DNA of 64,000 nucleotides, taken from the NCBI GenBank assembly GCA_026874595.1, contig CM049317.1, forward strand, positions 62,099,118-62,163,117. Reading direction: 5' to 3'. Within the stretch, counting starts at the first letter, position 1; each line of letters starts with the position of its first letter. The stretch comes from Sipunculus nudus (Eukaryota; Annelida; Sipuncula; Golfingiida; Sipunculidae). This document shows, one piece after another, positions 9,871-47,566 of this stretch. The notes beneath the pieces are model-generated. The model made no database searches, was not told the origin of the DNA, and saw only the letters and a list, made by a program, of their open reading frames with translations. Both the position numbers and the translations under genes were made by a program.

Positions 9871-11370
9871 CTTTTTTAAAGTAGCAGAATTATACATTTA
9901 TGGTTTTCATTGAACGATATTGCTCTTACTTTTGATATTAATGTTCACTAAACAGGACTGCTGTGTAGCCAGGGGACCCGTCTGTCACCATATGGTTCTT
10001 ATCAGTGTGTATTTTTAGGAAAATGCTGCATTTCTGTTGTGATTTTGCCGTAAGCAAAGAATTAGCAAAGCATCAGCAAAGTGTAAGCAAAGGGATTATG
10101 CCTTCATAGTTGCTTTTTTTCACCATTTTCTGAAGAAATCATGTATTTTCGGACTTTGCGGGGGTTTAATAATGTCAGAAATGGTAAAACATTGTAGGTA
10201 AATTGTGTTAAAATTGGAAAATGGGTCAAAGAAATCAATAAATGACTTTTTTAAAAATTGCAGAATTATACATTACCGGTTTTGATTGAACAATATTGCC
10301 CTTACTTTTGATATTAATGTTCACTAACCGGGACTGCTGTGTAGCCAGGGGACCCGTCTGTCCCCATATGGGTCATATCAGTGTGTTTTTTAGGAAAATG
10401 CTGCATTTCTGTTGTGATTTTGCCGTAAGCAGAGAATTAGCAAAGCATCAGCAAGGTGTAAGCAAAGGGATTATGCCTTCATAATTGCTCTTTGGCACCA
10501 TTTTCTGAAGAAATAATGTATTTTTGGACTTTGCGGGGGTCTAATAATGTCTGAAATGGTGAAACACTGTAGGTAAATTGTGTTAAAATTGGAAAATGGG
10601 TCAAAGAAATCAATAAATGACTTTTTTAAAAATAGCAGGATTATATATTATCGGTTTTGATCGAACGATATTGCCCTTACTTTTGATATTAATGTTCACT
10701 ATCCGGGACTGCTGTGTAGCCAGGGGACCCGTCTGTCACCATTTGGTTCTTATCAGTGTGTATTTTTAGGAAAATGCTGCATTTCTGTTGTGATTTTGCC
10801 GTAAGCAAAGAATTAGCAAAGCATCAGCAAAGTGTAAGCAAAGGGATTATGCTTTCATAGTTGATTTTTTTCACCATTTTCTGAAGAAATCATGTATTTT
10901 TGGACTTTGCGGGGGTCTAATAATGTCAGAAATGGTAAAACACTGTAGGTAAATTGTGTTAAAATTGGAAAAGGGGTCCAAGAAATCAATAAATGACTTT
11001 TTAAAAATAGCAGAATTATACATTATCGGTTTTGATCGAACGATATTGCCCTCACTTTTGATATTAATGTTCACTATGCGGGACAGCTGTGTAGCCAGGG
11101 GACCCGTCTGTCACCATATGCTTCTTATCAGTGTGTATTTTTAGGAAAATGCTGCATTTCTGTTGTGATTTTGCCGTAAGCAAAGAATAAGCAAAGCATC
11201 AGCAAAGTGTAAGCAAAGGGATTATGCCTTCATAATTGCTTTTCGGCACCATTTTCTGAAAAAATAATGTATTTTTGGGCTTTGCGGGGGTCTAATAATG
11301 TCAGAAATGGTAAAACACTGTAGGTAAATTCTGTTAAAATTAGAAAATGGGTCCCAGGAATCAATAAATG
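9871..11370. repeat. 1,500-bp tandem duplication, copy 1 (4 monomers)
   Basis: Monomers 9955, 10331, 10706 and 11081 recur at +1500. Edges are fuzzy because the monomers at 9580 and 11081 are nearly identical over their right parts. Small differences separate the copies: TATGGTTTTC against TATGTTTTC near 9900 and 11400, AGCAGGATTA against AGCAGAATTA at 10636 and 12136, and CTGTGTAG against CTCTGTAG at 10711 and 12211. Confidence 0.8.
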
Positions 11371-12870
11371 ACTTTTTTAAAGTAGCAGAATTATACATTT
11401 ATGTTTTCATTGAACGATATTGCTCTTACTTTTGATATTAATGTTCACTAAACAGGACTGCTGTGTAGCCAGGGGACCCGTCTGTCACCATATGGTTCTT
11501 ATCAGTGTGTATTTTTAGGAAAATGCTGCATTTCTGTTGTGATTTTGCCGTAAGCAAAGAATTAGCAAAGCATCAGCAAAGTGTAAGCAAAGGGATTATG
11601 CCTTCATAGTTGCTTTTTTTCACCATTTTCTGAAGAAATCATGTATTTTCGGACTTTGCGGGGGTTTAATAATGTCAGAAATGGTAAAACATTGTAGGTA
11701 AATTGTGTTAAAATTGGAAAATGGGTCAAAGAAATCAATAAATGACTTTTTTAAAAATTGCAGAATTATACATTACCGGTTTTGATTGAACAATATTGCC
11801 CTTACTTTTGATATTAATGTTCACTAACCGGGACTGCTGTGTAGCCAGGGGACCCGTCTGTCCCCATATGGGTCATATCAGTGTGTTTTTTAGGAAAATG
11901 CTGCATTTCTGTTGTGATTTTGCCGTAAGCAGAGAATTAGCAAAGCATCAGCAAGGTGTAAGCAAAGGGATTATGCCTTCATAATTGCTCTTTGGCACCA
12001 TTTTCTGAAGAAATAATGTATTTTTGGACTTTGCGGGGGTCTAATAATGTCTGAAATGGTGAAACACTGTAGGTAAATTGTGTTAAAATTGGAAAATGGG
12101 TCAAAGAAATCAATAAATGACTTTTTTAAAAATAGCAGAATTATATATTATCGGTTTTGATCGAACGATATTGCCCTTACTTTTGATATTAATGTTCACT
12201 ATCCGGGACTGCTCTGTAGCCAGGGGACCCGTCTGTCACCATTTGGTTCTTATCAGTGTGTATTTTTAGGAAAATGCTGCATTTCTGTTGTGATTTTGCC
12301 GTAAGCAAAGAATTAGCAAAGCATCAGCAAAGTGTAAGCAAAGGGATTATGCTTTCATAGTTGATTTTTTTCACCATTTTCTGAAGAAATCATGTATTTT
12401 TGGACTTTGCGGGGGTCTAATAATGTCAGAAATGGTAAAACACTGTAGGTAAATTGTGTTAAAATTGGAAAAGGGGTCCAAGAAATCAATAAATGACTTT
12501 TTAAAAATAGCAGAATTATACATTATCGGTTTTGATCGAACGATATTGCCCTCACTTTTGATATTAATGTTCACTATGCGGGACAGCTGTGTAGCCAGGG
12601 GACCCGTCTGTCACCATATGCTTCTTATCAGTGTGTATTTTTAGGAAAATGCTGCATTTCTGTTGTGATTTTGCCGTAAGCAAAGAATAAGCAAAGCATC
12701 AGCAAAGTGTAAGCAAAGGGATTATGCCTTCATAATTGCTTTTCGGCACCATTTTCTGAAAAAATAATGTATTTTTGGGCTTTGCGGGGGTTTAATAATG
12801 TCAGAAATGGTAAAACACTGTAGGTAAATTCTGTTAAAATTAGAAAATGGGTCCCAGGAATCAATAAATG
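11371..12870. repeat. 1,500-bp tandem duplication, copy 2 (4 monomers)
   Basis: Monomers 11455, 11831, 12206 and 12581. Both 11081 and 12581 carry the rare GGACAGCTG core variant. The copy ends near 12870, where TTTTTAAAAATTGCAG replaces TTTTTTAAAGTAGCAG. The +17,667 counterpart of the pair is about 27622-30537. Confidence 0.8.
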
Positions 12871-13637
12871 ACTTTTTAAAAATTGCAGAATTATACATTA
12901 TCGGTTTTGATCGAACGATATTGCCCTTACTTTTGATATTAATGTTCACTATCCGGGACTGCTGTGTAGTCAGTGACCCGTCTGTCACCATTTGGTTCTT
13001 ATCAGTGTGTATTTTTAGGAAAATGCTGCATTTCTGTTGTGATTTTGCCGTAAGCAAAGAATAAGCAAAGCATCAGCAAAGTGTAAGCAAAGGGATTATG
13101 CCTTCATAATTGCTTTTCGGCACCATTTTCTGAAAAAAATAATGTATTTTTGGGCTTTGGGGGGGGTCTAATAATGTCAGAAATGGTAAAACACTGTAGG
13201 TAAATTGTGTTAAAATTGGAAAATGGGTCCAAGAAATCAATAAATGACTTTTTTAAAAATTGCAGAATTATACATTATCGGTTTTGATCGAACGATATTG
13301 CCCTTACTTTTGATATTAATGTTCACTTTCCGGGACTGCTGTGTAGCCAGGGGACCCGTCTGTCACCATATGGTTCTTATCAGTGTGTATTTTTAGGAAA
13401 ATGCTGCATTTCTGTTGTGATTTTGCCGTAAGCAAAGAATTAGCAAAGCATCAGCAAAGTGTAAGCAAAGGGATTATGCCTTCATAGTTGCTTTTTTTCA
13501 CCATTTTCTGAAGAAATCATGTATTTTCGGACTTTGCGGGGGTCTAATAATGTCAGAAATGGTAAAACATTGTAGGTAAATTGTGTTAAAATTGGAAAAT
13601 GGGTCAAAGAAATCAATAAATGACTTTTTTAAAAATT

Positions 13638-13731
13638 GCAGAATTTTCAGAAATGGTAAAACACTGTAGATAAATTGTGTTAAAATTGGAAAATGGGTCC
13701 AATAAATCAATAAATGACTTTTTTAAAAATT
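13638..13731. repeat. 94-bp partial monomer duplication (composite monomer 2)
   Basis: Same duplication, but the join reads GAATTTTCAGAAATGG instead of GAATTTGCAGAAATGG. The length is the same, so this looks like one later G-to-T change rather than a separate event. Confidence 0.9.
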
Positions 13732-15234
13732 GCAGAATTATACATTTGCGGTTTTGATTGAACGATATTGCCCTTACTTTTGATATTAATGTTCACTAAC
13801 CGGGACTGCTGTGTAGCCAGGGGACCCGTCTGTCCCCATATGGGTCATATCAGTGTGTTTTTTAGGAAAATGCTGCATTTCTTTTGAGATTTTGCCGTAA
13901 GCAAAGAATTAGCAAAGCATCAGCAAGGTGTAAGCAAAGGGATTATGCCTTCATAATTGCTCTTTGGCACCATTTTCTGAAGAAATAATGTATTTTTGGA
14001 CTTTGCGGGGGTCTAATAATGTCAGAAATGGTAAAACACTGTAGGTAAATTGTGTTAAAATTGGAAAATGGGTCCAAGAAATCAATAAATGACTTTTTTA
14101 AAAATTGCAGAATTATACATTTTCGGTTTTGATCGATCGATATTGCCCTTACTTTTGATATTAATGTTCACTAACCGGGACTGCTGTGTAGCCAGGGGAC
14201 CCGCCTGTCTCCATATGGGTCATATCAGTGTGTATTTTTAGGAAAATGCTGCATTTCTGTTGTGATTTTGCCGTAAGCAAAGAATAAGCAAAGCATTAGC
14301 AAAGTGTAAGCAAAGGGATTATGCTTTCATGATTGCTTTTTGGCACAATTTTCTGAAGAAATAATGTATTGTTGGACTTTGCTATGGTCTAATAATGTCA
14401 GAAATGGTAAAACACTGTAGGTAAATTGTGTTAAAATTGGAAAATGGGTCCCAGGAAACAATAAATGACTTTTTTATAGTAGCAGAATTATATATTTGTG
14501 GTTTGATTGCACGATATTGCCCTTACTTTTGATATTAATGTTCACTAACCGGGACTGCTGTGTAGCCAGGGGACCCGTCTGTCCCCATATGGGTCATATC
14601 AGTGTGTATTTTTAGGAAAATGCTGCATTTCTATTGTGATTTTGCCGTAAGCAAAGAATAAGCAAAGCATCAGCAAAGTGTAAGCAAAGGGATTATGCCT
14701 TCATAATTGCTTTTTGGCACCATTTTCTGAAGAAATAATGTATTTTTTTGGCATTGCGGGGGTCTAATAATGTCAGAAATGGTGAAACACTGTAGGTAAA
14801 TTGTGTTTAAATTGGAAAATGGGTCAAAGAAATCTACAAATGACTTTTTTAAAAATAGCAGAATTATACATTTCCGGTTTTGATCGAACGATATTCCACT
14901 TACTTTTGATATTAATGTTCACTTACCGGGACTGCTGTGTAGCCAGGGGACCCGTCTGTTTCCATATTGGTCATATCAGTGCTTATTTTTAGTAAAATGT
15001 TTAATTTCTGTTGTGATTTTACTATAAGCAAAGAATAAGCAAAGCATAAAAAAAAGTGTAAGCAAAGGGATTATGCCTGCATAGTTGCTTTTTGGCACCA
15101 TTTTCTGAAGAAATAATGTATTTTTGGACTTTGCGGGCGTCTAATAATGTCAGAAATGGTAAAACATTGTAGGTAAATTGAGTTAAAATTGGAAAATGGG
15201 TCCAATAAATCAATAAATGACTTTTTTAAAAATT

Positions 15235-15328
15235 GCAGAATTTGCAGAAATGGTAAAACACTGTAGATAAATTGTGTTAAAATTGGAAAATGGGTCCAAT
15301 AAATCAATAAATGACTTTTTTAAAAATT
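15235..15328. repeat. 94-bp partial monomer duplication (composite monomer 3)
   Basis: Interval 14929-15400 (471 bp), typical join. It belongs to the 377-471-380 bp three-monomer module described under findings. Confidence 0.92.
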
Positions 15329-17340
15329 GCAGAATTATACATTTGCGGTTTTGATTGAACGATATTGCCCTTACTTTTGATATTAATGTTCACTAACCGG
15401 GACTGCTGTGTAGCCAGGGGACCCGTCTGTTTTCCTATGGGTCATATCAGTGTGTATTTTTAGGAAAATGCTGCATTTCTGTTGTGATTTTGCCGTAAGC
15501 AAAAAATAAGCAAAGCATCAACAAAGTGTAAGCAAAGTGATTATGCCTTCATAATTGCTTTTTTTTCACCATTCTCTGAAGAAATAATGTATTTTTGGAC
15601 TTTGCGGGGGGGGCTTATAATGTCAGAAATGGTAAAACATTGTAGGTAAATTGTGTTAAAATTGGAAAATGGGTCAAAGAAATCAATAAATGACTTTTTT
15701 TAAAAATTGCAGAATTATACATTACCGGTTTTGATTGAACAATATTGCCCTTACTTTTGATATTAATGTTCACTAACCGGGACTGCTGTGTAGCGAGGGG
15801 ACCCGTCTGTCCCCATATGGGTCATATCAGTGTGTTTTTTAGGAAAATGCTGCATTTCTTTTGAGATTTTGCCGTAAGCAAAGAATTAGCAAAGCATCAG
15901 CAAGGTGTAAGCAAAGGGATTATGCCTTCATAATTGCTCTTTGGCACCATTTTCTGAAGAAATAATGTATTTTTGGACTTTGCGGGGGTCTAATAATGTC
16001 AGAAATGGTAAAACACCGTAGGAAAATTGTGTTAAAATTGGAAAATGGGTCCAAGAAATCGATAAATGACTTTTTTAAAAATTGCAGAATTATACATTTT
16101 CGGTTTTGATCGAACGATATTGCCCTTACTTTTGATATTAATGTTCACTTTCCGGGACTGCTGTGTAGCCAGGGGACCCGTCTGTCACCATATGGTTCTT
16201 ATCAGTGTGTATTTTTAGGAAAATGCTGCATTTCTGTTGTGATTTTGCCGTAAGCAAAGAATTAGCAAAGCATCAGCAAAGTGTAAGCAAAGGGATTATG
16301 CCTTCATAGTTGCTTTTTTTCACCATTTTCTGAAGAAATCATGTATTTTCGGACTTTGCGGGGGTCTAATAATGTCAGAAATGGTAAAACACTGTAGGTA
16401 AATTGTGTTAAAATTGGAAAATGGGTCCAAGAAATCAATAAATGACTTTTTTAAAAATTGCAGAATTATACATTATCGGTTTTGATCGAACGATATTGCC
16501 CTTACTTTTGATATTAATGTTCACTTTCCGGGACTGTTGTGCAGCCAGGGGACCCATCTGTCACCATATGGTTCTTATCAGTGTGTATTTTTAGAAAAAT
16601 GCTGCATTTCTGTTGTGATTTTGCCGTAAGCAAAGAATTAGCAAAGCATCAGCAAGGTGTAAGCAAAGGTATTATGCCTTCATAATTGCTTTTTGGCACC
16701 ATTTTCTGAAGAAATAATGTATTTTTGGACTTTGTGGGGGTCTTATAATGTCAGAAATGGTAAAACATTGTAAGTTAATCGTGTTAAAATGGAAGATGGG
16801 TCCAAGAAATCAATAAATGACTTTTTTTAAAAATAGAAGAATTATACATTTGCGGTTTTGATTGAACGATATTGGCCTTACTTTTGATATTAATGTTCAC
16901 TATGCGGGACTGCTGTGTAGCCAGGGGACCCGTCTGTCACCATTTGGGTCATATCAGTGTGTATTTTTAGGAAAATGCTGCATTTCTGTTGTGAATTTGC
17001 CGTAAGCAAAGAATAAGCAAAGCATCAGCAAAGTGTAAGCAAAGGGATTATGCCTTCATAATTGCTTTTTGGCACCATTTTCTGAAGAAATAATGTATTT
17101 TTTTGGCATTGCGGGGGTGTAATAATGTCAGAAATGGTGAAACACTGTAGGTAAATTGTGTTTTAATTGGAAAATGGGTCAAAGAAATCTATAAATGACT
17201 TTTTTAAAAATAGCAGAATTATACATTTCCGGTTTTGATCGAACGATATTCCACTTACTTTTGATATTAATGTTCACTAACCGGGACTGCTGTGTAGCCA
17301 GGGGACCCGTCTGTTTCCATATGGGTCATATCAGTGCTTA

Positions 17341-20300
17341 TTTTTAGTAAAATGTTTAATTTCTGTTGTGATTTTACTATAAGCAAAGAATAAGCAAAGC
17401 ATAAAAAAAAGTGTAAGCAAAGGGATTATGCCTGCATAGTTGCTTTTTGGCACCATTTTCTGAAGAAATAATGTATTTTTGGACTTTGCGGGGGTCTAAT
17501 AATGTCAGAAATGGTAAAACATTGTAGGTAAATTGAGTTAAAATTGGAAAATGGGTCCAATAAATCAATAAATGACTTTTTTAAAAATTGCAGAATTTGC
17601 AGAAATGGTAAAACACTGTAGATAAATTGTGTTAAAATTGGAAAATGGGTCCAATAAATCAATAAATGACTTTTTTAAAAATTGCAGAATTATACATTTG
17701 CGGTTTTGATTGAACGATATTGCCCTTACTTTTGATATTAATGTTCACTAACCGGGACTGCTGTGTAGCCAGGGGACCCGTCTGTTTTCCTATGGGTCAT
17801 ATCAGTGTGTATTTTTAGGAAAATGCTGCATTTCTGTTGTGATTTTGCCGTAAGCAAAAAATAAGCAAAGCATCAACAAAGTGTAAGCAAAGTGATTATG
17901 CCTTCATAATTGCTTTTTTTTCACCATTCTCTGAAGAAATAATGTATTTTTGGACTTTGCGGGGGGGCTTATAATGTCAGAAATGGTAAAACATTGTAGG
18001 TAAATTGTGTTAAAATTGGAAAATGGGTCAAAGAAATCAATAAATGACTTTTTTTGAAAATTGCAGAATTATACATTACCGGTTTTGATTGAACAATATT
18101 GCCCTTACTTTTGATATTAATGTTCACTTACCGGGACTGCTGTGTAGCCAGGGGACCCGTCTGTATCCATATGGGTCATATCAGTTTGTATTTTTAGGAA
18201 AATGCTGCATTTCTGTTGTGATTTTGCCGTAAGCAAAGAATTAGCAAAGCATCAGCAAGGTGTAAGCAAAGGGATTATGCCTTCATAATTGCTTTTTGGC
18301 ACCATTTTCTGAAGAAATAATGTATTTTTGGACTTTGCGCGGGTCTTATAATGTCAGAAATGGTAAAACATTGTAAGTAAATTGTGTTAAAATTGGAAAA
18401 TGGGTCCAAGAAATCAATAAATGACTTTTTTAAAAATAGAAGAATTATACATTATCGGTTTTGATCGAACGATATTGCCCTTACTTTTGATATTAATGTT
18501 CACTAACCGGGACTGCTGTGTAGCCAGGGGACCCGTCTGTCCCCATATGGGTCATATTAGTGTGTATTTTTAGGAAAATGCTGCATTTCTGTTGTGATTT
18601 TGCCGTAAGCAAAGAATAAGCAAAGCATCAGCAAAGTGTAAGCAAAGGGATTATGCCTTCATAGTTGCTTTTTTTCACCATTTTCTGAAGAAATAATGTA
18701 TTTTTGGACTTTGCGATGGTCTAATAATGTCAGAAATGGTAAAACACTGTAGGTAAATTGTGTTAAAATTGGAAAATGGGTCCAATAAATCAATAAATGA
18801 CTTTTTTAAAAATTGCAGAATTATACATTACCGGTTTTGATTGAACAATATTGCCCTTACTTTTGATATTAATGTTCACTAACCGGGACTGCTGTGTAGC
18901 CAGGGGACCCGTCTGTCCCCATATGGGTCATATCAGTGTGTTTTTTAGGAAAATGCTGCATTTCTTTTGAGATTTTGACGTAAGCAAAGAATTAGCAAAG
19001 CATCAGCAAGGTGTAAGCAAAGGGATTATGCCTTCATAATTGCTCTTTGGCACCATTTTCTGAAAAAAATAATGTATTTCTGGGCTTTGCGGGGGTCTAA
19101 TAATGTCAGAAATGGTAAAACACTGTAGGTAAATTCTGTTAAAATTAGAAAATGGGTCCCAGGAATCAATAAATGACTTTTTTAAAAATTGCAGAATTAT
19201 ACATTACCGGTTTTGATTGAACAATATTGCCCTTACTTTTGATATTAATGTTCACCAACCGGGACTGCTGTGTAGCCAGGGGACCCGTCTGTCCCTATAT
19301 GGGTCATATCAGTGTGTTTTTATAGGAAAATGCTGCATTCCTGTTGTGATTTTGCCGTAAGCAAAGAATTAGCAAAGCATCAGCAAGGTGTAAGCAAAGG
19401 GATTATGCCTTCATAATTGCTCTTTGGCACCATTTTCTGAAGAAATCATGTATTTTTGGACTTTGCGGGGGTCTAATAATGTCAGAAATGGTAAAACATT
19501 GTAGGTAAATTGTGTTAAAATTGGAAAATGGGTCCAATAAATCAATAAATGACTTTTTTAAAAATAGCAGAATTATACATTATCGGTTTTGATCGAACGA
19601 TATTGCCCTTACTTTTGATATTAATGTTCACTATGCGGGACTGCTGTGTAGCCAGGGGACCCGTCTGTAACCATTTGGTTCTTATCAGTGTGTATTTTTA
19701 GGAAAATGCTGCATTTCTGTTGTGATTTTGCCGTATGCAAAGAATTAGCAAAGCATCAGCAAAGTGTAAGCAAAGGGATTATGCTTTCATAGTTGCTTTT
19801 TTCACCATTTTCTGAAGAAATCATGTATTTTTGGACTTTGCGGGGGTCTAATAATGTCAGAAATAGTAAAACACTGTAGGTAAATTGTGTTAAAATTGGA
19901 AAATGGGTCCAATAAATCAATAAATGACTTTTTAAAAATAGCAGAATTATACATTATCGGTTTTGATCGAACGATATTGCCCTCATTTTTTATATTAATG
20001 TTCACTATGCGGGACTGCTGTGTAGCCAGGGGACCCGTCTGTCACCATATGCTTCTTATCAGTGTGTATTTTTAGGAAAATGCTGCATTTCTGTTGTGAT
20101 TTTGCCGTAAGCAAAGAATAAGCAAAGCATCAGCAAAGTGTAAGCAAAGGGATTATGCCTTCATAATTGCTTTTCGGCACCATTTTCTGAAAAAATAATG
20201 TATTTTTCGGCTTTGCGGGGGTCTAATAATGTCAGAAATGGTAAAACACTGTAGGTAAATTCTGTTAAAATTGGAAAATGGGTCCCAGGAATCAATAAAT

Positions 20301-21944
20301 GACTTTTTTAAAAATTGCAGAATTATACATTATCGGTTTTGATCGAACGATATTGCCCTTACTTTTGATATTAATGTTCACTTTCCGGGACTGCTGTGTA
20401 GCCAGGGGACCCGTCTGTCACCATATGGGTCATATCAGTGTGTATTTTTAGGAAAATGCTGCATTTCTGTTGTGATTTTGCCGTAAGCAAAGAATAAGCA
20501 AAGCATCAGCAAAGTGTAAGCAAAGGGATTATGCCTTCATAGTTGCTTTTTTTCACCATTTTCTGAAGAAATTATGTATTTTCGGACTTTGCGGGGGTCT
20601 AATAATGTCAGAAATGGTAAAACATTGTAGGTAAATTGTGTTAAAATTGGAAAATGGGTCAAAGAAATCAATAAATGACTTTTTTAAAAATTGCAGAATT
20701 ATACATTACCGGTTTTGATTGAACAATATTGCCCTTACTTTTGATATTAATGTTCACTAACCGGGACTGCTGTGTAGCCAGGGGACCCGTCTGTCCCCAT
20801 ATGGGTCATATCAGTGTGTTTTTTAGGAAAATGCTGCATTTCTGTTGTGATTTTGCCGTAAGCAGAGAATTAGCAAAGCATCAGCAAGGTGTAAGCAAAG
20901 GGATTATGCCTTCATAATTGCTCTTTGGCACCATTTTCTGAAGAAATAATGTATTTTTGGACTTTGCAGGGGTCTAGTAATGTCTGAAATGGTGAAACAC
21001 TGTAGGTAAATTGTGTTAAAATTGGAAAATGGGTCAAAGAAATCAATAAATGACTTTTTTAAAAATAGCAGAATTATACATTTCCGGTTTTGATCGAACG
21101 ATATTGCCCTTACTTTTGATATTAATGTTCACTAACCGGGACTGCTGTGTAGCCAGGGGACCCGTCTGTCTCCATATGGGTCATATCAGTGTGTATTTTT
21201 AGGAAAATGCTGCATTTCTGTTGTGATTTTGCCGTAAGCAAAGGATAAGCAAAGCATTAGCAAAGTGTAAGCAAAGGGATTATGCTTTCATGATTGCTTT
21301 TTGGCACAATTTTCTGAAGAAATAATGTATTGTTGGACTTTGCTATGGTCTAATAATGTCAGAAATGGTAAAACACTGTAGGTAAATTGTGTTAAAATTG
21401 GAAAATGGGTCCCAGGAAACAATAAATGACTTTTTTATAGTAGCAGAATTATATATTTGTGGTTTGATTGCACGATATTGCCCTTACTTTTGATATTAAT
21501 GTTCACTAACCGGGACTGCTGTGTAGCCAGGGGACCCGTCTGTCCCCATATGGGTCATATCAGTGTGTATTTTTAGGAAAATGCTGCATTTCTGTTGTGA
21601 TTTTGCCGTAAGCAAAGAATAAGCAAAGCATCAGCAAAGTGTAAGCAAAGGGATTATGCCTTCATAGTTGCTTTTTTTCACCATTTTCTGAAGAAATAAT
21701 GTATTTTTGGACTTTGCGATGGTCTAATAATGTCAGAAATGGTAAAACATTGTAGGTAAATTGTGTTAAAATTGGAAAATGGGTCAAAGAAATCAATAAA
21801 TGACTTTTTTAAAAATTGCAGAATTATACATTACCGGTTTTGATTGAACAATATTGCCCTTACTTTTGATATTAATGTTCACTAACCGGGACTGCTGTGT
21901 AGCCAGGGGACCCGTCTGTCCCCATATGGGTCATATCAGTGTGT
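17341..21944. repeat. 4,604-bp tandem duplication, copy 1 (12 monomers)
   Basis: Anchors 17755 to 20388 recur at +4604 (22359 to 24992). The unit begins inside a monomer, at TAGTAAAATGTTTAAT. A private C at 19256 (T at 23860 and 26114) shows that the copies have begun to diverge. The private C is retained in the 17.7-kb copy at 36923. Confidence 0.85.
17590..17683. repeat. 94-bp partial monomer duplication (composite monomer 4)
   Basis: Interval 17284-17755 (471 bp), typical join. It lies inside copy 1 of the 4,604-bp duplication. Confidence 0.92.
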
Positions 21945-24900
21945 TTTTTAGTAAAATGTTTAATTTCTGTTGTGATTTTACTATAAGCAAAGAATAAGCA
22001 AAGCATAAAAAAAAGTGTAAGCAAAGGGATTATGCCTGCATAGTTGCTTTTTGGCACCATTTTCTGAAGAAATAATGTATTTTTGGACTTTGCGGGGGTC
22101 TAATAATGTCAGAAATGGTAAAACATTGTAGGTAAATTGAGTTAAAATTGGAAAATGGGTCCAATAAATCAATAAATGACTTTTTTAAAAATTGCAGAAT
22201 TTGCAGAAATGGTAAAACACTGTAGATAAATTGTGTTAAAATTGGAAAATGGGTCCAATAAATCAATAAATGACTTTTTTAAAAATTGCAGAATTATACA
22301 TTTGCGGTTTTGATTGAACGATATTGCCCTTACTTTTGATATTAATGTTCACTAACCGGGACTGCTGTGTAGCCAGGGGACCCGTCTGTTTTCCTATGGG
22401 TCATATCAGTGTGTATTTTTAGGAAAATGCTGCATTTCTGTTGTGATTTTGCCGTAAGCAAAAAATAAGCAAAGCATCAACAAAGTGTAAGCAAAGTGAT
22501 TATGCCTTCATAATTGCTTTTTTTTCACCATTCTCTGAAGAAATAATGTATTTTTGGACTTTGCGGGGGGGCTTATAATGTCAGAAATGGTAAAACATTG
22601 TAGGTAAATTGTGTTAAAATTGGAAAATGGGTCAAAGAAATCAATAAATGACTTTTTTTGAAAATTGCAGAATTATACATTACCGGTTTTGATTGAACAA
22701 TATTGCCCTTACTTTTGATATTAATGTTCACTTACCGGGACTGCTGTGTAGCCAGGGGACCCGTCTGTATCCATATGGGTCATATCAGTTTGTATTTTTA
22801 GGAAAATGCTGCATTTCTGTTGTGATTTTGCCGTAAGCAAAGAATTAGCAAAGCATCAGCAAGGTGTAAGCAAAGGGATTATGCCTTCATAATTGCTTTT
22901 TGGCACCATTTTCTGAAGAAATAATGTATTTTTGGACTTTGCGCGGGTCTTATAATGTCAGAAATGGTAAAACATTGTAAGTAAATTGTGTTAAAATTGG
23001 AAAATGGGTCCAAGAAATCAATAAATGACTTTTTTAAAAATAGAAGAATTATACATTATCGGTTTTGATCGAACGATATTGCCCTTACTTTTGATATTAA
23101 TGTTCACTAACCGGGACTGCTGTGTAGCCAGGGGACCCGTCTGTCCCCATATGGGTCATATTAGTGTGTATTTTTAGGAAAATGCTGCATTTCTGTTGTG
23201 ATTTTGCCGTAAGCAAAGAATAAGCAAAGCATCAGCAAAGTGTAAGCAAAGGGATTATGCCTTCATAGTTGCTTTTTTTCACCATTTTCTGAAGAAATAA
23301 TGTATTTTTGGACTTTGCGATGGTCTAATAATGTCAGAAATGGTAAAACACTGTAGGTAAATTGTGTTAAAATTGGAAAATGGGTCCAATAAATCAATAA
23401 ATGACTTTTTTAAAAATTGCAGAATTATACATTACCGGTTTTGATTGAACAATATTGCCCTTACTTTTGATATTAATGTTCACTAACCGGGACTGCTGTG
23501 TAGCCAGGGGACCCGTCTGTCCCCATATGGGTCATATCAGTGTGTTTTTTAGGAAAATGCTGCATTTCTTTTGAGATTTTGACGTAAGCAAAGAATTAGC
23601 AAAGCATCAGCAAGGTGTAAGCAAAGGGATTATGCCTTCATAATTGCTCTTTGGCACCATTTTCTGAAAAAAATAATGTATTTCTGGGCTTTGCGGGGGT
23701 CTAATAATGTCAGAAATGGTAAAACACTGTAGGTAAATTCTGTTAAAATTAGAAAATGGGTCCCAGGAATCAATAAATGACTTTTTTAAAAATTGCAGAA
23801 TTATACATTACCGGTTTTGATTGAACAATATTGCCCTTACTTTTGATATTAATGTTCACTAACCGGGACTGCTGTGTAGCCAGGGGACCCGTCTGTCCCT
23901 ATATGGGTCATATCAGTGTGTTTTTATAGGAAAATGCTGCATTCCTGTTGTGATTTTGCCGTAAGCAAAGAATTAGCAAAGCATCAGCAAGGTGTAAGCA
24001 AAGGGATTATGCCTTCATAATTGCTCTTTGGCACCATTTTCTGAAGAAATCATGTATTTTTGGACTTTGCGGGGGTCTAATAATGTCAGAAATGGTAAAA
24101 CATTGTAGGTAAATTGTGTTAAAATTGGAAAATGGGTCCAATAAATCAATAAATGACTTTTTTAAAAATAGCAGAATTATACATTATCGGTTTTGATCGA
24201 ACGATATTGCCCTTACTTTTGATATTAATGTTCACTATGCGGGACTGCTGTGTAGCCAGGGGACCCGTCTGTAACCATTTGGTTCTTATCAGTGTGTATT
24301 TTTAGGAAAATGCTGCATTTCTGTTGTGATTTTGCCGTATGCAAAGAATTAGCAAAGCATCAGCAAAGTGTAAGCAAAGGGATTATGCTTTCATAGTTGC
24401 TTTTTTCACCATTTTCTGAAGAAATCATGTATTTTTGGACTTTGCGGGGGTCTAATAATGTCAGAAATAGTAAAACACTGTAGGTAAATTGTGTTAAAAT
24501 TGGAAAATGGGTCCAATAAATCAATAAATGACTTTTTAAAAATAGCAGAATTATACATTATCGGTTTTGATCGAACGATATTGCCCTCATTTTTTATATT
24601 AATGTTCACTATGCGGGACTGCTGTGTAGCCAGGGGACCCGTCTGTCACCATATGCTTCTTATCAGTGTGTATTTTTAGGAAAATGCTGCATTTCTGTTG
24701 TGATTTTGCCGTAAGCAAAGAATAAGCAAAGCATCAGCAAAGTGTAAGCAAAGGGATTATGCCTTCATAATTGCTTTTCGGCACCATTTTCTGAAAAAAT
24801 AATGTATTTTTCGGCTTTGCGGGGGTCTAATAATGTCAGAAATGGTAAAACACTGTAGGTAAATTCTGTTAAAATTGGAAAATGGGTCCCAGGAATCAAT

Positions 24901-25293
24901 AAATGACTTTTTTAAAAATTGCAGAATTATACATTATCGGTTTTGATCGAACGATATTGCCCTTACTTTTGATATTAATGTTCACTTTCCGGGACTGCTG
25001 TGTAGCCAGGGGACCCGTCTGTCACCATATGGGTCATATCAGTGTGTATTTTTAGGAAAATGCTGCATTTCTGTTGTGATTTTGCCGTAAGCAAAGAATA
25101 AGCAAAGCATCAGCAAAGTGTAAGCAAAGGGATTATGCCTTCATAGTTGCTTTTTTTCACCATTTTCTGAAGAAATTATGTATTTTCGGACTTTGCGGGG
25201 GTCTAATAATGTCAGAAATGGTAAAACATTGTAGGTAAATTGTGTTAAAATTGGAAAATGGGTCAAAGAAATCAATAAATGACTTTTTTAAAA
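21945..25293. repeat. 4,604-bp tandem duplication, copy 2 (right end replaced)
   Basis: It starts at a chimeric monomer where a GTGTGTTTTTTAG left half joins TAGTAAAATGTTTAAT. It follows copy 1 to about 25293, where TAGCAGAATTATACATTTCC replaces the TTGCAGAATTATACATTACC seen at 20687. That switch equals skipping one monomer relative to copy 1, and the 2,254-bp duplication then follows. Confidence 0.8.
22194..22287. repeat. 94-bp partial monomer duplication (composite monomer 5)
   Basis: Interval 21889-22359 (470 bp), 4,604 bp from composite 4. The left part of the host monomer is the chimeric junction of that duplication. Confidence 0.92.
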
Positions 25294-25313
25294 ATAGCAG
25301 AATTATACATTTC
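23060..25313. repeat. 2,254-bp tandem duplication, copy 1 (6 monomers)
   Basis: Six anchors (23114, 23490, 23866, 24242, 24616, 24992) recur at +2254. All six monomers match in sequence, including the GTATGCAAAG and CATTTTTTATATT variants. Confidence 0.88.
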
Positions 25314-27567
25314 CGGTTTTGATCGAACGATATTGCCCTTACTTTTGATATTAATGTTCACTAACCGGGACTGCTGTGTAGCCAGGGGACCCGTCTGTCC
25401 CCATATGGGTCATATTAGTGTGTATTTTTAGGAAAATGCTGCATTTCTGTTGTGATTTTGCCGTAAGCAAAGAATAAGCAAAGCATCAGCAAAGTGTAAG
25501 CAAAGGGATTATGCCTTCATAGTTGCTTTTTTTCACCATTTTCTGAAGAAATAATGTATTTTTGGACTTTGCGATGGTCTAATAATGTCAGAAATGGTAA
25601 AACACTGTAGGTAAATTGTGTTAAAATTGGAAAATGGGTCCAATAAATCAATAAATGACTTTTTTAAAAATTGCAGAATTATACATTACCGGTTTTGATT
25701 GAACAATATTGCCCTTACTTTTGATATTAATGTTCACTAACCGGGACTGCTGTGTAGCCAGGGGACCCGTCTGTCCCCATATGGGTCATATCAGTGTGTT
25801 TTTTAGGAAAATGCTGCATTTCTTTTGAGATTTTGACGTAAGCAAAGAATTAGCAAAGCATCAGCAAGGTGTAAGCAAAGGGATTATGCCTTCATAATTG
25901 CTCTTTGGCACCATTTTCTGAAAAAAATAATGTATTTCTGGGCTTTGCGGGGGTCTAATAATGTCAGAAATGGTAAAACACTGTAGGTAAATTCTGTTAA
26001 AATTAGAAAATGGGTCCCAGGAATCAATAAATGACTTTTTTAAAAATTGCAGAATTATACATTACCGGTTTTGATTGAACAATATTGCCCTTACTTTTGA
26101 TATTAATGTTCACTAACCGGGACTGCTGTGTAGCCAGGGGACCCGTCTGTCCCTATATGGGTCATATCAGTGTGTTTTTATAGGAAAATGCTGCATTCCT
26201 GTTGTGATTTTGCCGTAAGCAAAGAATTAGCAAAGCATCAGCAAGGTGTAAGCAAAGGGATTATGCCTTCATAATTGCTCTTTGGCACCATTTTCTGAAG
26301 AAATCATGTATTTTTGGACTTTGCGGGGGTCTAATAATGTCAGAAATGGTAAAACATTGTAGGTAAATTGTGTTAAAATTGGAAAATGGGTCCAATAAAT
26401 CAATAAATGACTTTTTTAAAAATAGCAGAATTATACATTATCGGTTTTGATCGAACGATATTGCCCTTACTTTTGATATTAATGTTCACTATGCGGGACT
26501 GCTGTGTAGCCAGGGGACCCGTCTGTAACCATTTGGTTCTTATCAGTGTGTATTTTTAGGAAAATGCTGCATTTCTGTTGTGATTTTGCCGTATGCAAAG
26601 AATTAGCAAAGCATCAGCAAAGTGTAAGCAAAGGGATTATGCTTTCATAGTTGCTTTTTTCACCATTTTCTGAAGAAATCATGTATTTTTGGACTTTGCG
26701 GGGGTCTAATAATGTCAGAAATAGTAAAACACTGTAGGTAAATTGTGTTAAAATTGGAAAATGGGTCCAATAAATCAATAAATGACTTTTTAAAAATAGC
26801 AGAATTATACATTATCGGTTTTGATCGAACGATATTGCCCTCATTTTTTATATTAATGTTCACTATGCGGGACTGCTGTGTAGCCAGGGGACCCGTCTGT
26901 CACCATATGCTTCTTATCAGTGTGTATTTTTAGGAAAATGCTGCATTTCTGTTGTGATTTTGCCGTAAGCAAAGAATAAGCAAAGCATCAGCAAAGTGTA
27001 AGCAAAGGGATTATGCCTTCATAATTGCTTTTCGGCACCATTTTCTGAAAAAATAATGTATTTTTCGGCTTTGCGGGGGTCTAATAATGTCAGAAATGGT
27101 AAAACACTGTAGGTAAATTCTGTTAAAATTGGAAAATGGGTCCCAGGAATCAATAAATGACTTTTTTAAAAATTGCAGAATTATACATTATCGGTTTTGA
27201 TCGAACGATATTGCCCTTACTTTTGATATTAATGTTCACTTTCCGGGACTGCTGTGTAGCCAGGGGACCCGTCTGTCACCATATGGGTCATATCAGTGTG
27301 TATTTTTAGGAAAATGCTGCATTTCTGTTGTGATTTTGCCGTAAGCAAAGAATAAGCAAAGCATCAGCAAAGTGTAAGCAAAGGGATTATGCCTTCATAG
27401 TTGCTTTTTTTCACCATTTTCTGAAGAAATTATGTATTTTCGGACTTTGCGGGGGTCTAATAATGTCAGAAATGGTAAAACATTGTAGGTAAATTGTGTT
27501 AAAATTGGAAAATGGGTCAAAGAAATCAATAAATGACTTTTTTAAAAATAGCAGAATTATACATTTC
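25314..27567. repeat. 2,254-bp tandem duplication, copy 2 (6 monomers)
   Basis: Anchors are 25368, 25744, 26120, 26496, 26870 and 27246. The junction monomer at 25368 joins a TTTCCGG left part to the GGGTCATATTAG right part that also follows 23114. Both this copy and copy 1 are followed by the same TTTCCGG and GATCGAACGAT sequence. Confidence 0.88.
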
Positions 27568-27651
27568 CGGTTTTGATCGAACGATATTGCCCTTACTTTT
27601 GATATTAATGTTCACTAACCGGGACTGCTGTGTAGCCAGGGGACCCGTCTG
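27568..27651. other. Junction of the 17,667-bp duplication (chimeric monomer)
   Basis: The left part of this monomer (TTTCCGG, GATCGAACGAT, CTAACCGGG) is the type also found before 25368 and 45289. The right part (CACCATATGGTTC onward) is the type that follows 9955. The switch cannot be placed more finely than the shared stretch that contains the GC-rich core, because both parents are identical there. Confidence 0.8.
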
Positions 27652-30600
27652 TCACCATATGGTTCTTATCAGTGTGTATTTTTAGGAAAATGCTGCATTT
27701 CTGTTGTGATTTTGCCGTAAGCAAAGAATTAGCAAAGCATCAGCAAAGTGTAAGCAAAGGGATTATGCCTTCATAGTTGCTTTTTTTCACCATTTTCTGA
27801 AGAAATCATGTATTTTCGGACTTTGCGGGGGTTTAATAATGTCAGAAATGGTAAAACATTGTAGGTAAATTGTGTTAAAATTGGAAAATGGGTCAAAGAA
27901 ATCAATAAATGACTTTTTTAAAAATTGCAGAATTATACATTACCGGTTTTGATTGAACAATATTGCCCTTACTTTTGATATTAATGTTCACTAACCGGGA
28001 CTGCTGTGTAGCCAGGGGACCCGTCTGTCCCCATATGGGTCATATCAGTGTGTTTTTTAGGAAAATGCTGCATTTCTGTTGTGATTTTGCCGTAAGCAGA
28101 GAATTAGCAAAGCATCAGCAAGGTGTAAGCAAAGGGATTATGCCTTCATAATTGCTCTTTGGCACCATTTTCTGAAGAAATAATGTATTTTTGGACTTTG
28201 CGGGGGTCTAATAATGTCTGAAATGGTGAAACACTGTAGGTAAATTGTGTTAAAATTGGAAAATGGGTCAAAGAAATCAATAAATGACTTTTTTAAAAAT
28301 AGCAGGATTATATATTATCGGTTTTGATCGAACGATATTGCCCTTACTTTTGATATTAATGTTCACTATCCGGGACTGCTGTGTAGCCAGGGGACCCGTC
28401 TGTCACCATTTGGTTCTTATCAGTGTGTATTTTTAGGAAAATGCTGCATTTCTGTTGTGATTTTGCCGTAAGCAAAGAATTAGCAAAGCATCAGCAAAGT
28501 GTAAGCAAAGGGATTATGCTTTCATAGTTGATTTTTTTCACCATTTTCTGAAGAAATCATGTATTTTTGGACTTTGCGGGGGTCTAATAATGTCAGAAAT
28601 GGTAAAACACTGTAGGTAAATTGTGTTAAAATTGGAAAAGGGGTCCAAGAAATCAATAAATGACTTTTTAAAAATAGCAGAATTATACATTATCGGTTTT
28701 GATCGAACGATATTGCCCTCACTTTTGATATTAATGTTCACTATGCGGGACAGCTGTGTAGCCAGGGGACCCGTCTGTCACCATATGCTTCTTATCAGTG
28801 TGTATTTTTAGGAAAATGCTGCATTTCTGTTGTGATTTTGCCGTAAGCAAAGAATAAGCAAAGCATCAGCAAAGTGTAAGCAAAGGGATTATGCCTTCAT
28901 AATTGCTTTTCGGCACCATTTTCTGAAAAAATAATGTATTTTTGGGCTTTGCGGGGGTCTAATAATGTCAGAAATGGTAAAACACTGTAGGTAAATTCTG
29001 TTAAAATTAGAAAATGGGTCCCAGGAATCAATAAATGACTTTTTTAAAGTAGCAGAATTATACATTTATGTTTTCATTGAACGATATTGCTCTTACTTTT
29101 GATATTAATGTTCACTAAACAGGACTGCTGTGTAGCCAGGGGACCCGTCTGTCACCATATGGTTCTTATCAGTGTGTATTTTTAGGAAAATGCTGCATTT
29201 CTGTTGTGATTTTGCCGTAAGCAAAGAATTAGCAAAGCATCAGCAAAGTGTAAGCAAAGGGATTATGCCTTCATAGTTGCTTTTTTTCACCATTTTCTGA
29301 AGAAATCATGTATTTTCGGACTTTGCGGGGGTTTAATAATGTCAGAAATGGTAAAACATTGTAGGTAAATTGTGTTAAAATTGGAAAATGGGTCAAAGAA
29401 ATCAATAAATGACTTTTTTAAAAATTGCAGAATTATACATTACCGGTTTTGATTGAACAATATTGCCCTTACTTTTGATATTAATGTTCACTAACCGGGA
29501 CTGCTGTGTAGCCAGGGGACCCGTCTGTCCCCATATGGGTCATATCAGTGTGTTTTTTAGGAAAATGCTGCATTTCTGTTGTGATTTTGCCGTAAGCAGA
29601 GAATTAGCAAAGCATCAGCAAGGTGTAAGCAAAGGGATTATGCCTTCATAATTGCTCTTTGGCACCATTTTCTGAAGAAATAATGTATTTTTGGACTTTG
29701 CGGGGGTCTAATAATGTCTGAAATGGTGAAACACTGTAGGTAAATTGTGTTAAAATTGGAAAATGGGTCAAAGAAATCAATAAATGACTTTTTTAAAAAT
29801 AGCAGAATTATATATTATCGGTTTTGATCGAACGATATTGCCCTTACTTTTGATATTAATGTTCACTATCCGGGACTGCTGTGTAGCCAGGGGACCCGTC
29901 TGTCACCATTTGGTTCTTATCAGTGTGTATTTTTAGGAAAATGCTGCATTTCTGTTGTGATTTTGCCGTAAGCAAAGAATTAGCAAAGCATCAGCAAAGT
30001 GTAAGCAAAGGGATTATGCTTTCATAGTTGATTTTTTTCACCATTTTCTGAAGAAATCATGTATTTTTGGACTTTGCGGGGGTCTAATAATGTCAGAAAT
30101 GGTAAAACACTGTAGGTAAATTGTGTTAAAATTGGAAAAGGGGTCCAAGAAATCAATAAATGACTTTTTAAAAATAGCAGAATTATACATTATCGGTTTT
30201 GATCGAACGATATTGCCCTCACTTTTGATATTAATGTTCACTATGCGGGACAGCTGTGTAGCCAGGGGACCCGTCTGTCACCATATGCTTCTTATCAGTG
30301 TGTATTTTTAGGAAAATGCTGCATTTCTGTTGTGATTTTGCCGTAAGCAAAGAATAAGCAAAGCATCAGCAAAGTGTAAGCAAAGGGATTATGCCTTCAT
30401 AATTGCTTTTCGGCACCATTTTCTGAAAAAATAATGTATTTTTGGGCTTTGCGGGGGTTTAATAATGTCAGAAATGGTAAAACACTGTAGGTAAATTCTG
30501 TTAAAATTAGAAAATGGGTCCCAGGAATCAATAAATGACTTTTTAAAAATTGCAGAATTATACATTATCGGTTTTGATCGAACGATATTGCCCTTACTTT

Positions 30601-31304: not shown

Positions 31305-31398
31305 GCAGAATTTTCAGAAATGGTAAAACACTGTAGATAAATTGTGTTAAAATTGGAAAATGGGTCCAATAAATCAATAAATGACTTTTTTAAAAATT
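31305..31398. repeat. 94-bp partial monomer duplication (composite monomer 6)
   Basis: Copy of composite 2 at +17,667, with the same GAATTTTCAG join. Confidence 0.9.
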
Positions 31399-32901: not shown

Positions 32902-32995
32902 GCAGAATTTGCAGAAATGGTAAAACACTGTAGATAAATTGTGTTAAAATTGGAAAATGGGTCCAATAAATCAATAAATGACTTTTTTAAAAATT
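32902..32995. repeat. 94-bp partial monomer duplication (composite monomer 7)
   Basis: Copy of composite 3 at +17,667. Confidence 0.92.
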
Positions 32996-35256: not shown

Positions 35257-35350
35257 GCAGAATTTGCAGAAATGGTAAAACACTGTAGATAAATTGTGTT
35301 AAAATTGGAAAATGGGTCCAATAAATCAATAAATGACTTTTTTAAAAATT
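35257..35350. repeat. 94-bp partial monomer duplication (composite monomer 8)
   Basis: Copy of composite 4 at +17,667. Confidence 0.92.
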
Positions 35351-42600: not shown

Positions 42601-42960
42601 TTATCGGTTTTGATCGAACGATATTGCCCTTACTTTTGATATTAATGTTCACTTTCCGGGACTGCTGTGTAGCCAGGGGACCCGTCTGTCACCATATGGG
42701 TCATATCAGTGTGTATTTTTAGGAAAATGCTGCATTTCTGTTGTGATTTTGCCGTAAGCAAAGAATAAGCAAAGCATCAGCAAAGTGTAAGCAAAGGGAT
42801 TATGCCTTCATAGTTGCTTTTTTTCACCATTTTCTGAAGAAATTATGTATTTTCGGACTTTGCGGGGGTCTAATAATGTCAGAAATGGTAAAACATTGTA
42901 GGTAAATTGTGTTAAAATTGGAAAATGGGTCAAAGAAATCAATAAATGACTTTTTTAAAA
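39612..42960. repeat. 4,604-bp unit copy 2, as carried in the second 17.7-kb copy
   Basis: This is the +17,667 counterpart of the block at 21945-25293, with the same chimeric start (GTGTGTTTTTTAGTAAAATG near 39608) and the same departure near 42960. Its partner copy 1 lies at about 35008-39611. Confidence 0.82.
39861..39954. repeat. 94-bp partial monomer duplication (composite monomer 9)
   Basis: Copy of composite 5 at +17,667. Confidence 0.92.
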
Positions 42961-45234
42961 ATAGCAGAATTATACATTTCCGGTTTTGATCGAACGATAT
43001 TGCCCTTACTTTTGATATTAATGTTCACTAACCGGGACTGCTGTGTAGCCAGGGGACCCGTCTGTCCCCATATGGGTCATATTAGTGTGTATTTTTAGGA
43101 AAATGCTGCATTTCTGTTGTGATTTTGCCGTAAGCAAAGAATAAGCAAAGCATCAGCAAAGTGTAAGCAAAGGGATTATGCCTTCATAGTTGCTTTTTTT
43201 CACCATTTTCTGAAGAAATAATGTATTTTTGGACTTTGCGATGGTCTAATAATGTCAGAAATGGTAAAACACTGTAGGTAAATTGTGTTAAAATTGGAAA
43301 ATGGGTCCAATAAATCAATAAATGACTTTTTTAAAAATTGCAGAATTATACATTACCGGTTTTGATTGAACAATATTGCCCTTACTTTTGATATTAATGT
43401 TCACTAACCGGGACTGCTGTGTAGCCAGGGGACCCGTCTGTCCCCATATGGGTCATATCAGTGTGTTTTTTAGGAAAATGCTGCATTTCTTTTGAGATTT
43501 TGACGTAAGCAAAGAATTAGCAAAGCATCAGCAAGGTGTAAGCAAAGGGATTATGCCTTCATAATTGCTCTTTGGCACCATTTTCTGAAAAAAATAATGT
43601 ATTTCTGGGCTTTGCGGGGGTCTAATAATGTCAGAAATGGTAAAACACTGTAGGTAAATTCTGTTAAAATTAGAAAATGGGTCCCAGGAATCAATAAATG
43701 ACTTTTTTAAAAATTGCAGAATTATACATTACCGGTTTTGATTGAACAATATTGCCCTTACTTTTGATATTAATGTTCACTAACCGGGACTGCTGTGTAG
43801 CCAGGGGACCCGTCTGTCCCTATATGGGTCATATCAGTGTGTTTTTATAGGAAAATGCTGCATTCCTGTTGTGATTTTGCCGTAAGCAAAGAATTAGCAA
43901 AGCATCAGCAAGGTGTAAGCAAAGGGATTATGCCTTCATAATTGCTCTTTGGCACCATTTTCTGAAGAAATCATGTATTTTTGGACTTTGCGGGGGTCTA
44001 ATAATGTCAGAAATGGTAAAACATTGTAGGTAAATTGTGTTAAAATTGGAAAATGGGTCCAATAAATCAATAAATGACTTTTTTAAAAATAGCAGAATTA
44101 TACATTATCGGTTTTGATCGAACGATATTGCCCTTACTTTTGATATTAATGTTCACTATGCGGGACTGCTGTGTAGCCAGGGGACCCGTCTGTAACCATT
44201 TGGTTCTTATCAGTGTGTATTTTTAGGAAAATGCTGCATTTCTGTTGTGATTTTGCCGTATGCAAAGAATTAGCAAAGCATCAGCAAAGTGTAAGCAAAG
44301 GGATTATGCTTTCATAGTTGCTTTTTTCACCATTTTCTGAAGAAATCATGTATTTTTGGACTTTGCGGGGGTCTAATAATGTCAGAAATAGTAAAACACT
44401 GTAGGTAAATTGTGTTAAAATTGGAAAATGGGTCCAATAAATCAATAAATGACTTTTTAAAAATAGCAGAATTATACATTATCGGTTTTGATCGAACGAT
44501 ATTGCCCTCATTTTTTATATTAATGTTCACTATGCGGGACTGCTGTGTAGCCAGGGGACCCGTCTGTCACCATATGCTTCTTATCAGTGTGTATTTTTAG
44601 GAAAATGCTGCATTTCTGTTGTGATTTTGCCGTAAGCAAAGAATAAGCAAAGCATCAGCAAAGTGTAAGCAAAGGGATTATGCCTTCATAATTGCTTTTC
44701 GGCACCATTTTCTGAAAAAATAATGTATTTTTCGGCTTTGCGGGGGTCTAATAATGTCAGAAATGGTAAAACACTGTAGGTAAATTCTGTTAAAATTGGA
44801 AAATGGGTCCCAGGAATCAATAAATGACTTTTTTAAAAATTGCAGAATTATACATTATCGGTTTTGATCGAACGATATTGCCCTTACTTTTGATATTAAT
44901 GTTCACTTTCCGGGACTGCTGTGTAGCCAGGGGACCCGTCTGTCACCATATGGGTCATATCAGTGTGTATTTTTAGGAAAATGCTGCATTTCTGTTGTGA
45001 TTTTGCCGTAAGCAAAGAATAAGCAAAGCATCAGCAAAATGTAAGCAAAGGGATTATGCCTTCATAGTTGCTTTTTTTCACCATTTTCTGAAGAAATTAT
45101 GTATTTTCGGACTTTGCGGGGGTCTAATAATGTCAGAAATGGTAAAACATTGTAGGTAAATTGTGTTAAAATTGGAAAATGGGTCAAAGAAATCAATAAA
45201 TGACTTTTTTAAAAATAGCAGAATTATACATTTC
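40727..45234. repeat. 2,254-bp duplication pair, as carried in the second 17.7-kb copy
   Basis: The two copies are 40727-42980 and 42981-45234, each 17,667 bp from its counterpart. The only change I saw is A at 45039. Confidence 0.87.
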
Positions 45235-46413
45235 CGGTTTTGATCGAACGATATTGCCCTTACTTTTGATATTAATGTTCACTAACCGGGACTGCTGTGT
45301 AGCCAGGGGACCCGTCTGTCTCCATATGGGTCATATCAGTGTGTATTTTTAGGAAAATGCTGCATTTCTGTTGTGATTTTGCCGTAAGCAAAGGATAAGC
45401 AAAGCATTAGCAAAGTGTAAGCAAAGGGATTATGCTTTCATGATTGCTTTTCGGCACAATTTTCTGAAGAAATAATGTATTGTTGGACTTTGCTATGGTC
45501 TAATAATGTCAGAAATGGTAAAACACTGTAGGTAAATTGTGTTAAAATTGGAAAATGGGTCCCAGGAAACAATAAATGACTTTTTTATAGTAGCAGAATT
45601 ATATATTTGTGGTTTGATTGCACGATATTGCCCTTACTTTTGATATTAATGTTCACTAACCGGGACTGCTGTGTAGCCAGGGGACCCGTCTGTCCCCATA
45701 TGGGTCATATCAGTGTGTATTTTTAGGAAAATGCTGCATTTCTGTTGTGATTTTGCCGTAAGCAAAGAATAAGCAAAGCATCAGCAAAGTGTAAGCAAAG
45801 GGATTATGCCTTCATAGTTGCTTTTTTTCACCATTTTCTGAAGAAATAATGTATTTTTGGACTTTGCGATGGTCTAATAATGTCAGAAATGGTAAAACAT
45901 TGTAGGTAAATTGTGTTTAAATTGGAAAATGGGTCAAAGAAATCAATAAATGACTTTTTTAAAAATTGCAGAATTATACATTACCGGTTTTGATTGAACA
46001 ATATTGCCCTTACTTTTGATATTAATGTTCACTAACCGGGACTGCTGTGTAGCCAGGGGACCCGTCTGTCCCCATATGGGTCATATCAGTGTGTTTTTTA
46101 GGAAAATGCTGCATTTCTGTTGTGATTTTGCCGTAAGCAGAGAATTATCAAAGCATCAGCAAGGTGTAAGCAAAGGGATTATGCCTTCATAATTGCTCTT
46201 TGGCACCATTTTCTGAAGAAATAATGTATTTTTGGACTTTGCAGGGGTCTAGTAATGTCTGAAATGGTGAAACACTGTAGGTAAATTGTGTTAAAATTGG
46301 AAAATGGGTCAAAGAAATCAATAAATGACTTTTTTAAAAATAGCAGAATTATACATTTCCGGTTTTGATCGAACGATATTGCCCTTACTTTTGATATTAA
46401 TGTTCACTAACCG

Positions 46414-47472: not shown

Positions 47473-47566
47473 GCAGAATTTGCAGAAATGGTAAAACACT
47501 GTAGATAAATTGTGTTAAAATTGGAAAATGGGTCCAATAAATCAATAAATGACTTTTTTAAAAATT
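47473..47566. repeat. 94-bp partial monomer duplication (composite monomer 10)
   Basis: Interval 47167-47638 (471 bp), in copy 1 of the 8,737-bp duplication. Confidence 0.92.

Follow-up and report, generated by a model that had tools for sequence, protein, structure and literature searches.

How satellite arrays lengthen is still debated, with unequal exchange set against break-induced replication, and the locus described here raises the question in a concrete form. Two adjacent 17,667-bp blocks of a satellite array in Sipunculus nudus are far more alike than the other monomers of the array (2 mismatches in 17,667 bp, against a mean divergence of 6.2%), and they could reflect either a recent event or a fault of assembly. 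The window, by which we mean the whole 64,000-bp stretch that was analysed, corresponds to C12:62,099,118-62,163,117 in an assembly of 1.43 Gb and 153 contigs. We consider it highly probable that this stretch was truly duplicated in tandem, and very recently, within a megabase-scale array of 376-bp satellite, by homologous copying or exchange out of register. The copy number of the duplication was taken from this one assembly, from which we also infer its presence on the chromosome itself. The features of the window are listed in Table 1.

Table 1. Features of the satellite array and of its duplications, in window positions
Feature	Start	End	Strand	Remarks
Satellite array, ~376-bp head-to-tail monomers, substrate of the duplications	1	64000	+	Whole window
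94-bp partial unit ("composite" marker)	15151	15244	+	One of 12 in the window; defined by unit anchors
17,667-bp tandem duplication, copy 1	9955	27621	+	Ungapped match at +17,667, 2 mismatches
17,667-bp tandem duplication, copy 2	27622	45288	+	Same ungapped alignment
Junction interval, 32 bp of exact homology	27622	27653	+	Monomer positions ~156-187; same 32 bp at 9955-9986 and 45289-45320
Chimeric junction monomer	27467	27842	+	Identical to the end of copy 2 as far as 27653 and, from 27622 on, to the start of copy 1
Apparently derived C, private to copy 1	12214	12214	+	29881 is G; C in 1 of 166 aligned full-length monomers
Apparently derived A in copy 2	45039	45039	+	27372 is G; A also at 53776 (+8,737 image); 2 of 166 aligned full-length monomers
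Second exact tandem duplication, 8,737 bp, copy 1	43373	52109	+	8,831 bp exact at +8,737; overlaps right end of the 17,667-bp duplication
Second exact tandem duplication, 8,737 bp, copy 2	52110	60846	+	Exact match continues to 60940
Older nested 2,254-bp tandem duplication, two exact copies	23060	27567	+	Match continues to 27653; recurs in copy 2 of the 17,667-bp block from 40727 on, 1 mismatch
Older nested pair, offset 4,604, incomplete	17341	25295	+	17341-20691 against 21945-25295, 1 mismatch; also in second big copy

The duplicated block and its monomers

Monomers were located by an anchor search in which up to three substitutions were tolerated. The window contains 179 anchors and hence 178 anchor-to-anchor units, which represent 78 distinct sequences and include 12 partial units of 94 bp. 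Four of these partial units are in copy 1 (13554, 15151, 17506, and 22110), and four more are their +17,667 images in copy 2. The monomer consensus carries CAGAA at positions 1-5 and again at 86-90, and the sequence shows that the join of the 94-bp unit lies near these two sites; microhomology at this motif perhaps gave rise to the partial unit. Pairwise divergence among the 166 full-length monomers of the window averages 6.2% (maximum 12.3%), and about 1,100 differences would therefore be expected between unrelated stretches of 17,667 bp. The window gave no match in Rfam at gathering thresholds, 751 bp of the array gave none among plasmid records, and no paper on this repeat was found in the portion of the literature on 376 bp satellite or tandem monomers that was available to us.

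An earlier note on this DNA had described a nearly identical 17,667-bp tandem duplication at 9955-45288, and alignment of copy 1 to copy 2 at an offset of +17,667 confirmed it, with two mismatches and no gaps. The note had counted a single base difference, 27372 G against 45039 A; a second, 12214 C against 29881 G, had been overlooked. Its tally of 46 monomer anchors and four composite monomers per copy proved accurate, as 50 anchors fall between 9955 and 27621, four heading 94-bp partial units and 46 heading others. The duplication thus comprises 46 full-length monomers and four 94-bp units. The match runs from 9955 to 27653 (17,699 bp) and thus takes in one unit together with the 32 bp of homology at the junction. 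When units were compared at a fixed lag, the longest unbroken run of identical ones was 42, compared to runs of 3 or fewer in 200 shuffles of the unit order. Two substitutions across the two copies correspond to 5.7e-5 per site per lineage, although gene conversion could have removed differences, which would make the 17,667-bp event appear younger than its true age.

At lags 1-59, full-length monomers of the window diverge on average by 5.2% to 6.7%, with the exception of lag 46 (4.0%), and within the window no unit was found that is repeated many times at a fixed period and with high identity, as a higher-order repeat would be. The earlier statement that the duplicated unit is not built from a regular higher-order repeat stands as far as a fixed period is concerned, but it passes over the older nested duplications, at offsets of 4,604 and 2,254 bp, which are found within both copies. 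The left edge of the array may be an exception to the absence of a fixed-period higher-order repeat. Five composite markers are spaced there at 5.72-5.73 kb (61.897-61.920 Mb), and this spacing suggests that satellite and non-satellite insert were amplified as a single unit. Near the same edge, approximately 3.3 kb of non-satellite DNA lies inside the array (L024:2572-5901, at about 61.915 Mb on C12), in which no stop-to-stop frame of at least 100 amino acids was found.

The junction and the order of events

Because the match is 32 bp longer than the unit, the break between copy 1 and copy 2 is placed in the junction interval of Table 1. On either side of this break, each monomer in the flank of one copy aligns with its counterpart in the other, making the junction homologous and in register. 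Within the 324 kb compared (a 244-kb stretch around the window, one 10-kb array-edge piece, 40 kb of C11, and 30 kb of C12), windows of 60 and 80 bases centred on the break occur 21 times each, the 100-base window twice, and the 150-base window once, as does the full sequence of the junction monomer. Since the break sits in a conserved stretch, it is only the pairing of left and right flanks that makes the junction unique. A genome search with the junction monomer, in which 40 of 1,644 first-look candidates were scored, returned one match of 100%, with the next best at 98%.

These observations bear on the possibility that the second copy is an assembly artefact, the assembler having passed through a single 17.7-kb stretch two times or placed two haplotypes in series. 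The two differences in 17.7 kb may be consensus errors or allelic, and 17.7 kb is close to the common length of accurate long reads, so that the copy number of a near-exact unit of this size is hard to fix. An artefact requires a chimeric junction monomer, however, and one is present, its full sequence having been found once among the genome candidates scored. Each copy moreover carries one apparently derived base, and the A of 45039 recurs at 53776 in another duplication, a recurrence for which random consensus error would not account. Complete duplicate units also span many sizes, from 752 bp to 17.7 kb, and the short ones are far under common long-read lengths. We therefore regard an artefact as unlikely and the duplication as probably real.

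The relative age of the duplications can be read from the private bases. In the alignment column of 12214, the 166 full-length monomers show 1 C, 164 G, and 1 gap, and the 41-base context of 45039 with A occurs twice in 244 kb; from this pattern, both differences look derived, one in each copy. The 8,737-bp duplication (43373-60846), with a junction homology of 94 bp, is younger than the 17,667-bp duplication, because both of its copies carry the A of 45039. The simplest order begins with the 4,604- and 2,254-bp events, followed by the 17,667-bp duplication, then the change of G to A at 45039, and finally the 8,737-bp duplication. Gene conversion could upset this order, but is not required. 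The earlier note had interpreted the block as one very recent unequal exchange or replication-based duplication. A very recent, out-of-register event is what our results support best, but it is one of a series, and the younger 8,737-bp event overlaps its right end. The note had also proposed 27372/45039 as a phasing marker; this is usable, but the A allele is present at 53776 as well, and 12214, with C in copy 1 only, is the better marker.

Block duplications across the surrounding array

The array on C12 starts at or before 61.897 Mb, where the first composite marker lies, and ends between 63.10 and 63.20 Mb. An array on C11 starts at or before 31.182 Mb, ends between 31.8 and 32.0 Mb, and is mostly in the opposite orientation where sampled; the extents of both arrays are based on samples of 250-300 bp. 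An exact 32-mer is found in the genome 1,724 times forward and 225 times in reverse, and an exact 21-mer 1,891 and 1,074 times, respectively. Among the matches listed, which appear to follow contig order, neither had a place on C1-C10, with the qualification that an exact search misses diverged variants. The repeat was considered as a possible satellite of all centromeres, for which the listed matches offered arrays on C11 and C12 and no place on C1-C10. The 94-bp junction has 114 forward matches, of which those listed are all on C12, and a single reverse match on C9. The latter (C9:32501986) is a lone satellite fragment of approximately 107 bp that shares its 94-bp junction with the C12 composite monomers, and samples taken about 20 kb to either side of it are not satellite. 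On C12, from 62.4496 to 62.6329 Mb, the 94-bp composite markers are often paired or tripled at a spacing of 468-470 bp, a local change of array type. Most of the C11 monomers listed are on the minus strand, and the seven plus-strand places at 31.383-31.595 Mb probably represent local inversions in the array.

Contigs with bacterial-looking cytochrome oxidase or cytochrome b genes, many of them alike, were also seen in the assembly (C60-C62, C64, C66-C69, C72, C74, C75, C89, and C90). The best relative of the COX1 of C61 among the genome contigs searched is 58% identical and belongs to an Oligoflexia MAG. On C89, two copies of each gene are separated by approximately 2.04 Mb, an arrangement suggestive of a circular genome written out twice.

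The window and nine 10-kb pieces joined to it on each side form 244 contiguous kb without N. A tandem unit was taken as complete when the match was at least as long as the offset, less than 1% different, and at least 300 bp long. Sixteen rows of complete units were found, with sizes of 17,667, 12,585, 8,737, 7,885, 4,231, 4,129, 3,008, 2,254 (twice), 1,128 (three times), 1,127 (three times), and 752 bp. Some rows are copies of one event, and the two 2,254-bp rows represent one per copy of the big block. Five complete rows were found in the 40 kb of C11 and two in 30 kb from deeper in the C12 array. Incomplete near-identical pairs include those at offsets of 21,708 (21,002 bp, 3 mismatches), 17,288 (10,256 bp, 3 mismatches), and 10,702 (9,169 bp, no mismatches), and the 17,667-bp block is thus neither the sole nor the longest near-identical pair found in the 244 kb. 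When complete units of more than 99.5% identity were collapsed in order of decreasing size, 174,860 of 244,000 bp remained after 16 steps. We considered whether unit sizes form a doubling series (2,254, 4,604, 8,737, and 17,667), but the units of 12,585, 7,885, 4,231, 4,129, and 3,008 bp do not bear this out.

Pairs of 8 kb or longer at 99.8% identity or more cover 63% of the bases in the 244 kb, and pairs of 2 kb or longer cover 87%. The corresponding shares are 44% and 94% in the 40 kb of C11 and 0% and 64% in the 30 kb of deeper C12 array, although they are not strictly comparable across samples since short stretches hold few large pairs. Within its 30 kb, the deeper C12 sample did not support the presence of blocks reaching 8 kb.

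Block ends were compared for the 105 blocks that reach both 1.5 kb in length and 99.8% identity, with a register tolerance of 6 bases. At 40 bp past the break, 31 of 32 right ends and 28 of 29 left ends were in register (59 of 61 distinct ends), counts that are not of independent ends because duplications copy older junctions. The two exceptions are at 62,092,367 (offset 22,150, shift 14) and 62,016,784 (offset 6,855, shift 33). That the ends are in register supports homology-directed duplication and disfavours end joining. Replication slippage or end joining with microhomology, for which the CAGAA motifs near the join of the 94-bp unit could be cited, would usually leave non-homologous junctions out of register, and the junction of the 17,667-bp block itself lies in register within 32 bp of exact homology; we find this origin scarcely credible. 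Along the monomer, break positions are not significantly different from those expected if crossovers fell at random in register and each was then traced to the following mismatch (p = 0.22 right, 0.11 left). The junction intervals of the 17,667-, 8,737-, and 2,254-bp duplications overlap at monomer positions 156-187. A breakpoint hotspot at these positions was considered but found no support, as the 32 right and 29 left ends, small numbers in themselves, showed no departure from the homology null, with the same p values.

For the 17,667-bp block, the in-register homologous junction points to homology-directed exchange or break-induced replication more than to end joining or slippage, and we infer a homology-directed route. 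A broken or stalled replication fork, or a sister-chromatid exchange, may have re-engaged the array out of step, displaced by 17,667 bp (46 full-length monomers plus four units of 94 bp) while the register within the monomer was kept, and the displaced stretch would then have been copied or exchanged. The in-register junction fits crossover and break-induced replication alike. Within this route, we rate break-induced replication at least as likely as unequal exchange between sister chromatids. Unequal crossing over between sisters or homologues, as the form that homology-directed duplication took here, is possible but on balance doubtful. It would account for the in-register junction, the homology at the break, the presence of just 2 differences in 17.7 kb, and breaks spread along the monomer as the homology null predicts, but the same evidence fits break-induced replication from an out-of-register invasion equally well. 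In addition, knockdown of RAD52 or PIF1 in human cells is described in parts of a review as having blocked array changes over 20 cell generations (PMC12321929).

The second copy could also have been made by excision and re-integration of a circle or by long-tract gene conversion, both of which are named among the proposed satellite mechanisms in the same review (PMC12321929). Conversion overwrites existing sequence, however, and by our reasoning would not by itself give a clean adjacent duplication with one chimeric monomer, whereas a circle re-inserted beside its source could do so at the cost of one extra step. We consider either origin very unlikely.

Comparison with known satellite systems

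In higher-order repeat arrays such as human alpha satellite, blocks of diverged monomers are copied as a unit at high identity, and the same is seen here. The window differs from such arrays in having no fixed-period unit repeated many-fold, and its blocks are of many sizes, nested, and overlapping. It is plausible, if still rather tentative, that turnover and growth of this satellite proceed mainly by single in-register block duplications of several to about 20 kb with no fixed size, rather than through exchange at the scale of monomers or through a fixed higher-order unit, and that the array keeps an ordered record of these events. Simulations cited in the review count against this reading, since, by its account of them, higher-order structures on the megabase scale can form from nothing more than small indels and sub-monomer conversion tracts (PMC12321929). 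The single case is a fresh example of a known process. If reads confirm the duplications, individual events of 2-20 kb can be distinguished and ordered, with junctions mapped to within a few tens of bases, and such an array would provide direct data on the size, register, and order of events.

The review favours out-of-register break-induced replication as the likely main route of satellite change, citing work in human cells (PMC12321929, PMC11034957). As outlined in these sources, the model predicts that annealing out of register will duplicate one set of repeats or several, as is found here. Its support comes from copy-number change in human cells (PMC12321929, PMC11034957), whereas in the present case the product alone is seen.

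The closest parallel is provided by a preprint on human centromeres, the relevant sections of which report germline insertions of approximately 1.2-7.5 kb together with one 56-kb tandem duplication (PMC12746033). The 17,667-bp block falls between these sizes. It resembles the duplication in the chromosome 9 centromere in being a new tandem block of tens of kilobases, there within an alpha-satellite array (PMC12746033). As described in the preprint, the chromosome 9 duplication was seen between generations, lies in a higher-order repeat (HOR) array, and is broken by a 7-HOR insertion (PMC12746033); the present block, unlike it, is deduced from one assembly and lies in a satellite without a fixed higher-order repeat.
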